Both the position numbers and the translations under genes were made by a program. From an uncultured Alphaproteobacteria bacterium (GTDB lineage: Bacteria; Pseudomonadota; Alphaproteobacteria; UBA8366; GCA-2717185), in NCBI GenBank assembly GCA_943788635.1, contig CALSRA010000010.1:62001-126000 (forward strand): a stretch of 64,000 nucleotides of DNA. Reading direction: 5' to 3'. The notes below the pieces were generated by a model, which saw nothing but the letters and a program-made list of their open reading frames with translations, made no database searches and was not told the DNA's origin. Each line of letters begins with the position of its first letter. The stretch's first letter is position 1. Positions 8,603-29,020 of this stretch are shown here, piece after piece.

Positions 8603-9835
8603 CTAGGGGTCCTTCGGCGCGCGGATCGTTCCGGCCGTTTCCAGTGCTTCGATGCGCGTCGTGTCATACCCCAACAGGTCCCGCAGAATCTCCCGCGAAT
8701 GCTGGCCCAGCACCGGCGCCCCAACGGGGTCGCGCACCGGCGTGCCGGTGAAACGCATCGGCGAGCCCACGACCGGAACGCTGCCCAGGCTGGCATGCGG
8801 CGCCTGTTTGACCAGCCCGCTGGTCGTCATTTCTTCCGATTCCATTGCCTCCGCAACCGTGCGGATGGGGCCGGCGGGAACGCCGGCGGCGCGCATCGCG
8901 GCAATCCAGTTGTCGCGGGTGTCGCCCGCGAACAGCCCGTTCAGGGTCGCGTTCAGCCGGTCCTTGTTGTTGACCCGGCCTTCGTTGGCCGCGAAATCCG
9001 GGTCTTCCGGCAGGTCGGGGCGGTTCAGGACCGTCAGGCAGAGTTTGCGGAACACGGCATCGCCCGCCACCGTCAGCATGAACGGCCCGTCCGCCGCCTC
9101 ATAGGCGCCAACCGGCTGGGCCACGGGGGAGGAATTACCGAAACGGGTCGCGTCCACCCCGGCGGTCAGGTAACTGCTGGCGAAGGGAATCATCACCGCA
9201 CTGGCGGAATCGAACAGCGGCACATCGATGCGCTGGCCCAGCCCCGTGACCTTGCGGCTGTACAGCGCGCCGAGAATTGCCTGCGACGCAAACATGCCGG
9301 CGAAGACATCGATCAGCGACACGCCGAGCCGCATCGGGTCGCCCGCCGGATCGCCGGTCACCGCCATCATGCCGCTTTCCGCCTGGATGACGGGGTCGTA
9401 TCCGGCGCGCGCTGCGAAGGGTCCGTCGCGGCCATAGCCGGAAATCGAACAATAGATCACGCTCGGGTTGGTCTGTATCAGGCTGTCGTAATCCAGTCCG
9501 AAGCGCTGCATGATTTCGGCGCTGAAATTTTCGACCACCACATCGGCGCGGTCGGCGAGATCCCGTGCGACCTGCTGGCCTTCCGGGGTGGAAATGTTCA
9601 GCGCGATGCTTTTCTTGTTCCGGTTGATGGCCAGGAAATAGCTCGATTCATCGCCCATCGCCGGCGGGCGGAAGCCCCGGCTGTCATCGCCACCCTTCGG
9701 ATTTTCGACCTTGACGATCTCCGCGCCCAGATCGCCCAGCTGCAACGTGCAATAGGGCCCGGCGAGCACGCGGCTGAAATCCAGCACGGTGACGCCGTCC
9801 AGCGCGCCCGGCTTCTGTTCCGTTTGTGCGGTCAT
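8603..9835 (-). CDS. CaiB/BaiF family CoA transferase
   Basis: LDGVTVLDFSRVLAGPYCTLQLGDLGAEIVKVENPKGGDDSRG, VVENFSAEIMQRFGLDYDSL. Confidence 0.94.
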   Translation of the reverse strand: MTAQTEQKPGALDGVTVLDFSRVLAGPYCTLQLGDLGAEIVKVENPKGGDDSRGFRPPAMGDESSYFLAINRNKKSIALNISTPEGQQVARDLADRADVVVENFSAEIMQRFGLDYDSLIQTNPSVIYCSISGYGRDGPFAARAGYDPVIQAESGMMAVTGDPAGDPMRLGVSLIDVFAGMFASQAILGALYSRKVTGLGQRIDVPLFDSASAVMIPFASSYLTAGVDATRFGNSSPVAQPVGAYEAADGPFMLTVAGDAVFRKLCLTVLNRPDLPEDPDFAANEGRVNNKDRLNATLNGLFAGDTRDNWIAAMRAAGVPAGPIRTVAEAMESEEMTTSGLVKQAPHASLGSVPVVGSPMRFTGTPVRDPVGAPVLGQHSREILRDLLGYDTTRIEALETAGTIRAPKDP

Positions 9836-24139: not shown

Positions 24140-25819
24140 TTAACGGCGCAGTGGCTTGTACTTGATACGGTGTGGCTGGTCCGCAATCGCGCCAAGGCGC
24201 TGCCGGCGGTCGGCTTCATAATCCTGATAATTCCCCTCGAACCACACGACCTGACTATCGCCTTCGAAGGCGAGCATATGCGTACAGATGCGGTCGAGGA
24301 ACCAGCGGTCATGGCTAATCACCACCACACATCCCGCAAATCCTGCCAAGGCAGATTCCAGTGCCCTCAGGGTGTCCACATCCAGATCATTGGTCGGTTC
24401 ATCGAGCAGCAGCACATTGGCGCTTCGGCGCAGCATTTTGGCCAGATGGACACGATTGCGCTCACCGCCGGATAGCTGACCGACCTTCTTTTGCTGATCG
24501 GCGCCTTTGAAATTGAATGCACCGACATAGGCGCGGCTGGACATGCGCCGCTTGCCAAGATCAATTTCCTCTTCACCCTGGCTGACTTCTTCCCAAACGG
24601 TACTATCGGCATTCAGTGAGTCGCGGGACTGATCGACATAGCCAAGCTCGACCGTGTCACCGACCCGAAGTTCCCCCGAATCGGGTGTTTCCTGTTCGGT
24701 AATCATCCGGAACAGCGTGGATTTGCCCGCACCGTTGGGGCCAATAACGCCAACAATAGCACCAGGGGGAATGCGGAAATCCAGATCCTCGATCAGCAGC
24801 GTGTTACCGTAACCTTTTCGAAGGTGCTCCGCGGTGACGACGACGTCGCCCAGACGAGGCCCGGGCGGGATAATTATCTGGGCATTGCCGGGGCCCTGCT
24901 CACTGCTATCCGATAGCAGCTTCTCATACGCCGTAATTCGCGCTTTCGACTTAGCCTGCCGGGCTCTTGGGCTCGATGCGATCCATTCCTGTTCCATGGA
25001 AAGTGTCCGCATCCGCGCCTGATCGACCCGGTCTTCATGTTCCATGCGTTTTTGTTTCTGCCCAACCCAGGCGGAGTAATTGCCTTCGTAGGGAATGCCG
25101 TTGCCCCGGTCGAGTTCGAGAATCCAGCCGGTGACATTGTCCAGAAAATAACGGTCATGGGTAACCATGACGACAGTGCCTTCATATTCGCGCAGATGCC
25201 GTTCCAGCCAGGCAACGGATTCCGCATCAAGGTGGTTGGTGGGTTCATCCAGCAACAGCAACGATGGTTTCTGCAGCAGCAGCCGGCACAGTGCGATCCT
25301 GCGGCGCTCGCCGCCTGACAGGTTTGCAACGCCGGCTTCCCCATCCGGACAGCGCAACGCATCCATGGCGATTTCAACGGTTCGCGAAAGGTCCCAGGCA
25401 TCGGCTGCATCGATCTTTTCCTGCAGTTCAGCCTGTTCGTCGATCAGCGCGGTCATCTCATCCGGGTCTGTGACCTCGCCAAGCTTCATGCTGACTTCTT
25501 CGAAGCGATCAACGATCTGTTTCTGCTCCGCGAGACCCTCCAGAACGTTTTCATAGACAGTCTTGTCGGCATCAAGCTGGGGTTCCTGCTCCAGATAGCC
25601 GACGGTTGCACCTTCTGCCGCCCAGGCTTCGCCGGTAAATTCGGTGTCCATGCCCGCCATAATGCGTAACAGGGTCGACTTCCCGGCACCGTTGTACCCA
25701 AGCACGCCGATCTTTACGCCAGGCAGAAACGCAAGCGTGACACCTTTCAGGACTTCCCGGCCACCGGGATAGGTCTTGCTGAGAGACTGCATGGTGTAGA
25801 TGTACTGATATGAAGCCAT
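24140..25819 (-). CDS. ettA: energy-dependent translational throttle protein EttA (ABC-F ATPase)
   Basis: MASYQYIYTMQSLSKTYPGGREVLKGVTLAFLPGVKIGVLGYNGAGKSTLLRIMAG, two ABC modules with LSGGE. Confidence 0.96.
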   Translation of the reverse strand: MASYQYIYTMQSLSKTYPGGREVLKGVTLAFLPGVKIGVLGYNGAGKSTLLRIMAGMDTEFTGEAWAAEGATVGYLEQEPQLDADKTVYENVLEGLAEQKQIVDRFEEVSMKLGEVTDPDEMTALIDEQAELQEKIDAADAWDLSRTVEIAMDALRCPDGEAGVANLSGGERRRIALCRLLLQKPSLLLLDEPTNHLDAESVAWLERHLREYEGTVVMVTHDRYFLDNVTGWILELDRGNGIPYEGNYSAWVGQKQKRMEHEDRVDQARMRTLSMEQEWIASSPRARQAKSKARITAYEKLLSDSSEQGPGNAQIIIPPGPRLGDVVVTAEHLRKGYGNTLLIEDLDFRIPPGAIVGVIGPNGAGKSTLFRMITEQETPDSGELRVGDTVELGYVDQSRDSLNADSTVWEEVSQGEEEIDLGKRRMSSRAYVGAFNFKGADQQKKVGQLSGGERNRVHLAKMLRRSANVLLLDEPTNDLDVDTLRALESALAGFAGCVVVISHDRWFLDRICTHMLAFEGDSQVVWFEGNYQDYEADRRQRLGAIADQPHRIKYKPLRR

Positions 25820-26044
25820 CGTTGCGTACCGCCGTTTTACCGAAAAGGAGGAGGCCGGTTTTAGCTGCTTCACCGCGCCAGTTCAACGAATGCATTGCGT
25901 TTGCCGAGGATGCCCGCGATTTGGGCTATGCGCGTAAATCCTCCGTTAATATTAGGACGCTACTGTTCCGGTCAATTAAGCCGGTAATGCCCGTGAAAAC
26001 CCTTTGCTGGCGGCGCCGGGATATCCCGTTTCAAGGAGTGACTT

Positions 26045-27205
26045 ATGTCGGAGTTAGCGGTAGTCGAACACCACGACCAGAGTTTCGCAGACAACGAAAA
26101 GCTGGTGACCATGAAAATCGACAATCAACTGTTCGGTGTTCCTATCCTGCAGGTACAGGACATTGTCGAGCCGCGCCTTATTACGCCTGTTCCTCTGGCG
26201 CCATCAACGATTGCAGGGGTAATGAACCTGCGTGGTCGGATCGTCACAGTTATCAACCTGCGACAGTGTCTCGGCCTTCCCGACAAGCCGGAACACGATC
26301 GCTGGATGGGCATAACGGTCGAGTACAAGGGCGATCTCTACACTTTGCTGGTCGATGAAATCGGCGATGTCTGTGATTCACGGCGAAAGGAATTTGAAGC
26401 CCCCCCCGCGACGCTGAACGAGAATGTCCGGCAGCTGTGCACGGGGATCTTCCGCCGGCAGGGCGATCTGCTTGTGGTTTTGGACGTCGATCGCGTCCTT
26501 GACGCGGAAATGCTTACAAAAGCCCCGCAAGTCAGATTGAAGCAGCGCATCGCGCGATCCGAAACCCGCCGCAAGAAGAAAGCGCCGGCACCGGCACCAG
26601 AAGTGGAAAATACCGAAGAATCTGACACGGATGCCGCGTTGGAAAGCGAAAAAGGTTCCGCCCGAAAAGGCGCTGACAAACAGGACGCCAAAAAGGCAGA
26701 GGCCGATGTAGAAAATGCAGAAGCTGACGTAACGAAGGATGACGCCAAGGTTCTGGATTTCAACAAGTCGGCAAAGTCAGTGCCGACACCCGAGGCTTCC
26801 GAGGCGCCCGCGCCGGAGAGTAAGCCAACAGACGGATCCATGAGCCTGTTTGAACGCCTTGGCGGCGATGATGCGGTCGAAGCTGCCGTCGATATTTTCT
26901 ACGGCAAGATCATGTCCGACAGCGCGCTGAAGCCGTTCTTCGATGGGGTCAATATGGACCAGCAATCCTTTATGCAGCGTATCTTCCTGACGGGTGCCTT
27001 CGGCGGGCCCCAGGCATATACGGGGCGCTCCCTGCGCGTTGCGCATGAAGGCCTGGTGAACGAAAAGGGGTTGAGCGAGGAGCATTTCACGGCGGTGGCC
27101 GGGCATCTGAAGGCAACGCTTGAAGAGCTGGGCATCGAAGCCGACATGATCGGCGAGGTGATGACTATTGTCGCCAGCACCCATGACGATGTGCTGAACC
27201 TCTAG
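26045..27205 (+). CDS. CheW domain - acidic/Ala/Lys-rich linker - group 1 truncated hemoglobin fusion protein
   Basis: N-term KLVTMKIDNQLFGVPILQVQDIVEPRLITPVPLAPSTIAGVMNLRGRIVTVINLRQCLGLP (CheW); C-term MSLFERLGGDDAVEAAVDIFYGKIMSDSALKPFFDGVNMDQQSFMQRIFLTGAFGGPQAYTGRSLRVAHEGLV (trHb1), globin starts at codon 266 (nt 26840). Confidence 0.93.
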   Translation: MSELAVVEHHDQSFADNEKLVTMKIDNQLFGVPILQVQDIVEPRLITPVPLAPSTIAGVMNLRGRIVTVINLRQCLGLPDKPEHDRWMGITVEYKGDLYTLLVDEIGDVCDSRRKEFEAPPATLNENVRQLCTGIFRRQGDLLVVLDVDRVLDAEMLTKAPQVRLKQRIARSETRRKKKAPAPAPEVENTEESDTDAALESEKGSARKGADKQDAKKAEADVENAEADVTKDDAKVLDFNKSAKSVPTPEASEAPAPESKPTDGSMSLFERLGGDDAVEAAVDIFYGKIMSDSALKPFFDGVNMDQQSFMQRIFLTGAFGGPQAYTGRSLRVAHEGLVNEKGLSEEHFTAVAGHLKATLEELGIEADMIGEVMTIVASTHDDVLNL

Positions 27206-27265: not shown

Positions 27266-28876
27266 TCAGAGTGATTTGAAGAAATCGTTGCCCTTGTCAT
27301 CCATGACGATGAAGGCAGGGAAATTTTCAACTTCGATGCGCCAGATAGCCTCCATTCCGAGATCTTCGTATTCCATGACCTCGACCTTCTTGATGCAGTC
27401 TTGCGCCAGCCGCGCTGCGGGGCCGCCGATAGACCCCAGATAGAACCCACCGTGCTTTTGGCAGGCCTGGCGAACCATATCGGACCGATTTCCCTTCGCG
27501 AGCATGATCATGCTGCCGCCGGCGGCCTGGAACTGATCGACATAGGAATCCATCCGTCCTGCGGTTGTCGGTCCGAAAGAGCCTGACGCAAAGCCTTCCG
27601 GGGTTTTTGCCGGACCCGCGTAATAGACCGGATGATCCTTCATATACTGCGGCAACTCCTTGCCGGAATCGAGTAGCGCCTTCAGCCGCGCATGCGCCAG
27701 GTCCCGGGCGACGATTATCGTCCCGGTCAGTGACAATCGTGTCTTGATCGGATGCTGGGTCAGCGTGCCCAGGATATCGCTCATCGGCATGGACAGGTCG
27801 ATATCGACGACGTCACCGCCGAGCTGATCAGACACTGTATCCGGCATGAACCGGGCCGGGTTATTTTCAAGTTGCTCCAGGAACACGCCGTCGGCTGTGA
27901 TCTTGCCCATCGCCTGACGGTCCGCAGAGCAGGACACGCCAATGCCGATCGGCAGGCTGGCGCCATGTCGCGGCAGGCGGATTACACGGACATCGTGACA
28001 GAAATACTTGCCACCGAACTGCGCCCCGATTCCCATGTTCTGGCTCATCTTGAAGACTGCTTCTTCCATTTCCAGGTCACGGAAGGCATGTCCGGTATCG
28101 CCGCCTTTGGTCGTCAGCGCATCCAGATAATGGCAACTCGCCAGTTTCACGGTCTTCAGGTTGAACTCGGCCGACGTGCCCCCGATGACCACCGACAGGT
28201 GATAGGGCGGGCAGGCGGCGGTGCCAAGCGAACGGATTTTCTCGTCCAGGAAAGGCATCAGCTTTTCCGGGTTCAGCATCGCCGGTGTTTCCTGGAACAG
28301 ATAGGTCTTGTTGGCCGACCCGCCGCCTTTGGCGACGAACAGGAACTTGTAGGCATCACCGGGTTCTGCATAGAGTTCGATCTGCCCCGGCAGGTTGGTT
28401 TTCGTGTTGGTTTCCTCATACATCGTAACCGGTGAAACCTGGCTGTAACGCAAGTTTCGCTTGGCGTAAGTGCGCAGGATACCATCGGAAATCGCCGCTT
28501 CGTCGGCACCGCCGGTCCAGACATTCTGGCCCTTCTTGCCCATCACGATTGCGGTGCCCGTGTCCTGACACATCGGCAGTGTGCCGCCGGCCGCGATATT
28601 CGCATTCTTCAACAGATCAAAGGCAACGAAACGGTCATTGTCTGACGCTTCGGGATCGTCGAGAATTTTTGCGAGCTGGGCCAGATGGTCCGGACGGAGC
28701 AGATGGTTGATATCGCCGAAGGCTTCTTCAGCCAGCAGCCGCAGCGCTTCGGGATCGACCTTGAGGACCTTTTGGCCATCGAAATCCACCGTGCTGACAT
28801 AATCGCTGCTCAGCTTCCTGTAAGGCGTCTTGTCCGCGCCCATGGGAAACATCGTGAAATTTGAGTCGTCGGCCAT
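27266..28876 (-). CDS. class I fumarate hydratase
   Basis: [56 protein letters not shown]. Confidence 0.95.
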
Positions 28877-29020
28877 GTTTCTTGTCCCCTCTGATTCGGC
28901 ATGCGCCGGCATGCGAAATTTTACGCTCGTTCCGATCCGCCCAGTCTAATGCTTCGACAGGCGGGATTCCACCTTGAGGACGATTTATACGGTCCGTTGA
29001 GAACGGCTATCAGGAAAGGG

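Follow-up and report, generated by a model that had tools for sequence, protein, structure and literature searches.

The window, that is, the whole stretch of 64,000 nucleotides that was analysed, contains a gene that is open throughout from its ATG start to its stop and whose product joins a CheW domain to a truncated hemoglobin (trHb). A preliminary description, made from the letters of the sequence, had read this gene as one uninterrupted frame of 386 codons with CheW, a linker of about 90 residues rich in Ala, Glu, Lys and Asp, and a group-1 trHb, lying beside ettA and a fumarase gene. These points all stand. The open frame, the Pfam matches and the structural model agree on the domains, the segment between them is disordered, and the frames of both neighbours are where they were said to be (Table 1). 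The pairing of the fusion's cheW with the fumarase gene is syntenic in the host family (f1), in family f4 and in at least one genome (G022) of family f2.

Table 1. Features of the fusion gene and its neighbours; positions are counted from the first letter of the window
Feature	Position	Strand	Evidence
ettA-type ABC-F ATPase gene, divergent upstream neighbour	24140..25873	-	ORF; adjoins the fusion in G010
Shine-Dalgarno AAGGAG at the fusion start	26033..26038	+	sequence; anti-SD duplex -8.6 kcal/mol
cheW-trHb fusion gene, 386 aa plus stop	26045..27205	+	single open frame; host-family homologues, 57-67% identity
CheW domain, residues 20-154	26102..26506	+	PF01584, E=4.7e-31; Foldseek CheW 2ch4/2qdl, TM 0.83 by target
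Disordered linker rich in A/E/K/D/P/S/T, residues 170-264	26552..26836	+	pLDDT <50; fast-evolving by dN/dS
Group-1 truncated hemoglobin, residues 267-384	26843..27196	+	PF01152 (Bac_globin), E=8e-16; Foldseek THB1 6cii, TM 0.90 by target
B10 Tyr286	26900..26902	+	alignment to GlbN and THB1
E7 Gln307	26963..26965	+	alignment to GlbN and THB1
E10 Met310, replacing the distal Lys of the free trHbs compared	26972..26974	+	alignment
F8 proximal His334	27044..27046	+	kept in 8/8 family fusions
Class-I fumarase gene, convergent downstream neighbour	27266..28912	-	ORF; adjacent or close to the fusion in f1, in f4 and in G022 of f2

The fusion is genuine. There is neither a stop nor a frameshift between the domains, and independent assemblies carry the same fusion, 57-67% identical to the window protein, which argues against a chance joining. 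Misassembly, a frameshift or a globin translated separately can be set aside as having a negligible chance of being correct: the frame does have an internal ATG at 26840 (Met266), but it has only GGAGAG about 16 nt upstream and no well-placed Shine-Dalgarno sequence, the aligned host-family members have no Met at this position, and the many assemblies that carry the fusion include closed and isolate genomes, so that the homologues and the start-site comparison together rule out an artefact as well as the globin-only product that the preliminary description had raised.

An AlphaFold model based on an alignment of 14 orthologues gives confident CheW and globin domains with a disordered segment between them, and Foldseek recovered both folds from it. 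The first domain belongs to a CheW adaptor: PF01584 is the main domain, kinase domains are absent, the fold matches the CheW structures in Table 1, and the domain is orthologous to the CheWs of the order. In an NCBIfam scan of the fusion protein the CheW equivalog matched only below threshold. The closest solved relatives of the second domain are group-1 trHbs, namely THB1 (4xdi, E=3.6e-29) and then cyanobacterial GlbN, and together with Pfam they place it in the 2/2 globin fold of the trHbN class, with the proximal His of that class at F8. Pairwise dN/dS values, rough because synonymous sites are near saturation, are about 0.02-0.13 for CheW, 0.04-0.20 for the globin and about 0.14-0.5 for the linker. 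The CheW and globin domains are under purifying selection and the linker is drifting. The highest globin values (0.20 and 0.17) come from pairs with G010 and G004, in neither of which was CheA found.

Distribution of the fusion and its heme pocket

The order of the host consists of marine Alphaproteobacteria and was sampled with 44 genomes; the host family is represented by 12. Nine of these 12 carry the fusion (G005 is counted on a CheW half that runs to the contig end), and eight of the family fusions can be aligned, at the identities given above. Beyond the host family the fusion is found in 11 of the 14 f2 genomes and in some f4 genomes, and its carriers in the order include isolates and closed genomes. 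The named f2 records are Aestuariispiraceae (for example Hwanghaeella grinnelliae, Marivibrio halodurans, Curvivirga aplysinae and Aestuariispira insulae). All seven genomes of family f3 encode the same CheW, extended by a long disordered tail and lacking the globin; at the f3 loci L087, L090, L094 and L096 the tail that follows the orthologous CheW is disordered-looking and a few hundred residues long.

The tested CheWs of the order form one clade (100/99) against 16 outgroup CheWs, and those of f1 and f4 group together (92/95). A census of the CheW plus Bac_globin architecture, of the kind that the preliminary description proposed, finds it in three families of the order. No full-length fusion from outside the order was among the matches listed for 385 alphaproteobacterial and 399 phylum genomes (overlapping sets), a search that could miss degenerate globins. 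In plasmid records CheW and the globin were matched only separately, and no match extended over 80% of the query. Topology tests neither rejected nor established two ideas on the ancestry of the globin: the AU p is 0.26 for descent of the fused domain from the free trHb of the family itself and 0.30 for one origin of all CheW-fused globins. Vertical inheritance within the lineage is part of the explanation that we tentatively prefer below.

Two details of the heme pocket had been recognized by eye, a Met in place of the E10 His ligand of GlbN and the expected proximal His, and alignment to THB1 and GlbN bears out both. E10 is Met310 (Lys in THB1, His in GlbN), E11 is Gln311, and F8 is a His in every one of the aligned family fusions. 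Met occupies E10 in seven of these eight, and Lys in all seven free trHbs compared. The exception is the fusion of G010, with Lys at E10, Phe at B10 and Leu at both E7 and E11; the CheW-fused globin of G037 also has Lys at E10. The complete set of pocket residues (Tyr B10, Gln E7, Met E10, Gln or Met E11, His F8) is present in 4/4 family genomes that have CheA, a correlation between pocket state and CheA that spans few genomes. Judged by its sequence the heme site of the host family is intact, and the protein would be expected to bind heme.

What the Met at E10 might do can be considered in the light of related globins. In THB1 LysE10 is the sixth heme ligand (PMC7082302). In its K(E10)M variant the Met coordinates the heme in the ferrous and not in the ferric state (PMC11904497). 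The trHbN of Shewanella benthica, which has a natural Met at E10, is pentacoordinate when reduced (PMC11904497), and therefore Met at E10 need not ligate the heme. Redox-dependent ligation by the E10 Met is thus possible in the fusion, not certain.

Chemotaxis partners in the host and its family

The fusion had been called an orphan unit, and at the scale of the genome it looks like one. It holds the only PF01584 domain of the host genome, the three MCPs of the host are all on other contigs, and neither a CheA P3 nor a P5 domain was found in this 84% complete genome. There is also no match in it to ChpT, the gene of which adjoins cheA in relatives. In the host genome (G000:C12, L225:9440-9946) there is a C-terminal fragment of fliG, a frame of 137 aa at a locus that is syntenic with intact fliG in G011 (L238). 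CheA might be missing from an assembly of this completeness, but the fliG remnant is independent of completeness. It looks as if the chemotaxis kinase and the flagellar motor are gone from the host, and the absence of CheA is probably true and not assembly-related.

No separate stand-alone CheW was found in the host family. In the four family genomes with CheA (G001, G002, G003 and G007) the other PF01584 domains are two within the CheA frame, so no stand-alone CheW other than the fusion was found there, and every array in these genomes should therefore carry the globin. The CheA of G001 (L065:869-3640, + strand) has Hpt, P3 and HATPase domains, two CheW-like domains and a C-terminal receiver, and no globin.

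Among the genomes in which CheA was not found, G008 has the fusion as a pseudogene, G010 has it with a changed pocket, G004 has a copy that has lost its end, and the host (G000) and G006 (62% complete) have it intact; since several MAGs are incomplete (62-95%), failure to find CheA does not prove that it is absent. The decayed copy of G008 (C194, L061, reverse strand, about 9099-9754) lies beside fumarase and has stops and frameshifts, with the linker and much of the globin lost; neither CheA nor FliG was found in that genome. In G011 a CheA gene (L069:8870-10444, - strand) lies between chpT and cheY and is truncated behind the ATPase domain, so that it lacks P5/CheW and the receiver, and no CheW was found anywhere in the genome. 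In the host family, motility seems to have been lost more than once.

Is the host gene then a decaying, functionless leftover of a lost motility system? The undetected CheA and ChpT, the fliG truncated in comparison with the intact G011 locus, the pseudogene in G008 and the absence of the fusion from G011 would all fit, and we regard this as a serious possibility, even if a somewhat improbable one. The frame, however, is intact and has a good ribosome site, dN/dS relative to the family members is low in both domains, three MCPs are still encoded, and the genome is incomplete.

What the tethered globin may do

The reading that we prefer, to which we give a nearly even chance of being correct as a whole, is that a vertically inherited fusion has tethered a heme-binding trHb to the one stand-alone CheW detected in the lineage, and that the protein would be an array sensor in relatives with CheA and an orphan in the host. 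We infer the heme binding, the location at the array and the direction of signalling. In family members with CheA the globin would ride on each CheW at the array baseplate. A change of heme redox state, or a bound gas such as O2 or NO, would alter the globin, and the altered globin might change either the coupling of receptors to CheA by CheW or the local crowding, and with it the kinase gain. With Met in place of Lys at E10, the ligation of the heme may come to depend on redox state. In favour of this reading are two complete domains with the correct folds in the model and with purifying selection on each, the lack of any other detected stand-alone CheW beside CheA, the pocket kept in the genomes with CheA, the trHbs found in CheA and on an MCP elsewhere, and the Met ligation of the THB1 variant. 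Against it is the disordered tether of about 95 residues, which offers no obvious rigid allosteric route; a linker of this length would favour tethered interaction over a rigid lever. The loss of the proximal His in most Aestuariispiraceae copies, described below, and the pentacoordinate reduced trHbN of Shewanella benthica also count against it. In the host the output is probably gone, the protein itself being most likely an orphan survivor of that system. The proposal of the preliminary description that the globin could tune the array survives, then, in part: the fusion is conserved and has a heme-competent site, but tuning is doubtful in the host itself because no CheA P3/P5 domain and no chpT match were found and fliG is truncated.

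The arrangement can be compared with several known systems. Globin-coupled sensors join an N-terminal sensor globin to an output domain (PMC13401364, PMC1457004). HemAT and its kind resemble the fusion in that a globin is joined to a chemotaxis protein, with a presumed heme-based input to CheA. However, their N-terminal 3/3 globin is on a receptor or enzyme, whereas here a C-terminal 2/2 trHb is on the CheW adaptor and the protein has no PF00015; the arrangement is unlike HemAT, as had been claimed, with the globin on CheW and not on a receptor. CheV, too, is a coupling protein of the CheW type extended by a regulatory domain, through which coupling could be modulated; it consists of CheW and a receiver domain (PMC12691637). 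The domain added in CheV is a phosphorylatable receiver, while the fusion has a trHb and no receiver (PF00072 is absent). THB1 and GlbN share the fold, the F8 His and 44-47% identity over the domain in structural alignments; they are free-standing, however, and have Lys (THB1) or His (GlbN) at E10, where the CheW-tethered globin has Met. A search of openly licensed papers for CheW or CheA together with truncated hemoglobin or globin brought up no description of such a fusion.

RsbR offers a further likeness, a globin-fold head on a large assembly that is heme-binding or non-heme depending on lineage (PMC9237108, PMC6614362), although its globin is of a different class and its core is a STAS domain, whereas the fusion would belong to the chemotaxis baseplate. 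It also provides a precedent for another explanation, namely that the globin acts chiefly as a structural or interaction head without need of heme, and that heme binding is kept in the host family but is not the signal: the heads of RsbR lack heme in Bacillus and Listeria (PMC6614362) and bind it in Vibrio (PMC9237108). The Aestuariispiraceae lend substance to this idea. Full-length frames with the C-terminal domain persist in their 11 carrier genomes, yet the F8 His is lost in 10 of the 11, replaced by Leu, Tyr, Val or Ser. Therefore heme is not essential to the role of the fusion throughout the order. Two scanned proteins of this family had no Pfam globin match, one of them L078, from a close relative of Aestuariispira, yet for a model of the Aestuariispira domain the best PDB matches are trHbs (TM about 0.7, E 2.6e-3), which is supportive and not fully independent evidence of a globin fold, since true trHbs were included in the model's alignment. 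By sequence, most Aestuariispiraceae copies would count as non-heme globin heads. The window protein would not, since it retains the F8 His, as do all eight family fusions, and the pocket is kept in every member that has CheA. Pure scaffolding would need neither, and family f3 manages without any globin. We hold a mainly heme-independent head to be unlikely.

Alternatively, the trHb could be a tethered enzyme, an NO dioxygenase or a scavenger of O2 or NO kept near the array and the cell pole, with CheW serving only as an address tag. Tyr at B10 and Gln at E7 and E11, typical of catalytic trHbNs, would fit such a role, and the long flexible linker suits tethering more than allostery. We think this quite unlikely: several of the same genomes have free trHb paralogues, so that a tethered copy is unneeded for bulk detoxification; the Met at E10 is not seen in the free trHbs compared; and no reductase gene is adjacent.

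To return to the sensor reading, CheW is usually portrayed as a passive connector. If the reading is correct, the sensing of heme state or gases may once have been a task of the scaffold itself as well as of the receptors. With a conserved heme domain on the only CheW of the lineage, every core unit would contain a sensor, and a cytoplasmic signal could then adjust the gain of the entire array, no dedicated receptor being needed. Nature has provided a comparison series: the heme site intact where CheA is present, lost in Aestuariispiraceae, the globin absent in f3 and the gene decayed with loss of motility. The four named Aestuariispiraceae species above are cultured carriers of homologues.

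Truncated hemoglobins in other chemotaxis proteins

Elsewhere in the Alphaproteobacteria, trHbs are built into other chemotaxis proteins. In G346 (L209:6213-9314, + strand; the frame contains a stretch of N) and in G238 (L214:2649-4010, + strand; it ends at the contig end) a CheA has a trHb at the P2 position, and the CheA of G124 (L211:2-2587, - strand) has a degenerate trHb at P2 and a second one inside the CheW domain of P5. Met is at E10 in two of the three P2-position globins of CheA.

These proteins resemble the fusion in having a trHb within a chemotaxis protein, but the globin is at P2 or inside P5 of CheA, or N-terminal on a PAS-MCP protein, and not on CheW. Since host proteins and insertion points differ, a single fusion event shared with the CheW-trHb protein is implausible. 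Alongside CheW-trHb, the CheA-trHb and MCP-trHb proteins point to a wider habit, apparently undescribed, of plugging truncated hemoglobins into chemotaxis proteins. One could go further and suppose that in separate alphaproteobacterial lineages trHbs have repeatedly made the array itself a sensor of heme redox state or gas, by way of CheW, CheA or MCP, with Lys-to-Met at E10 in the CheW and some CheA cases giving a sixth ligand that depends on redox state, so that coupling gain across the scaffold would follow the redox or gas state of the cytoplasm; in this general form we find the idea rather unlikely.

The MCP examples come from two genomes of one other family. In G328 (L210:4470-7328, + strand) a soluble receptor has an N-terminal trHb, PAS domains and an MCP signalling domain, and in G236 (L212:5028-6032, + strand) an N-terminal trHb is followed by PAS domains in a frame that ends at the contig end. 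In the order of G346, the CheA-trHb protein occurs in one of 11 genomes, that of G346 itself.
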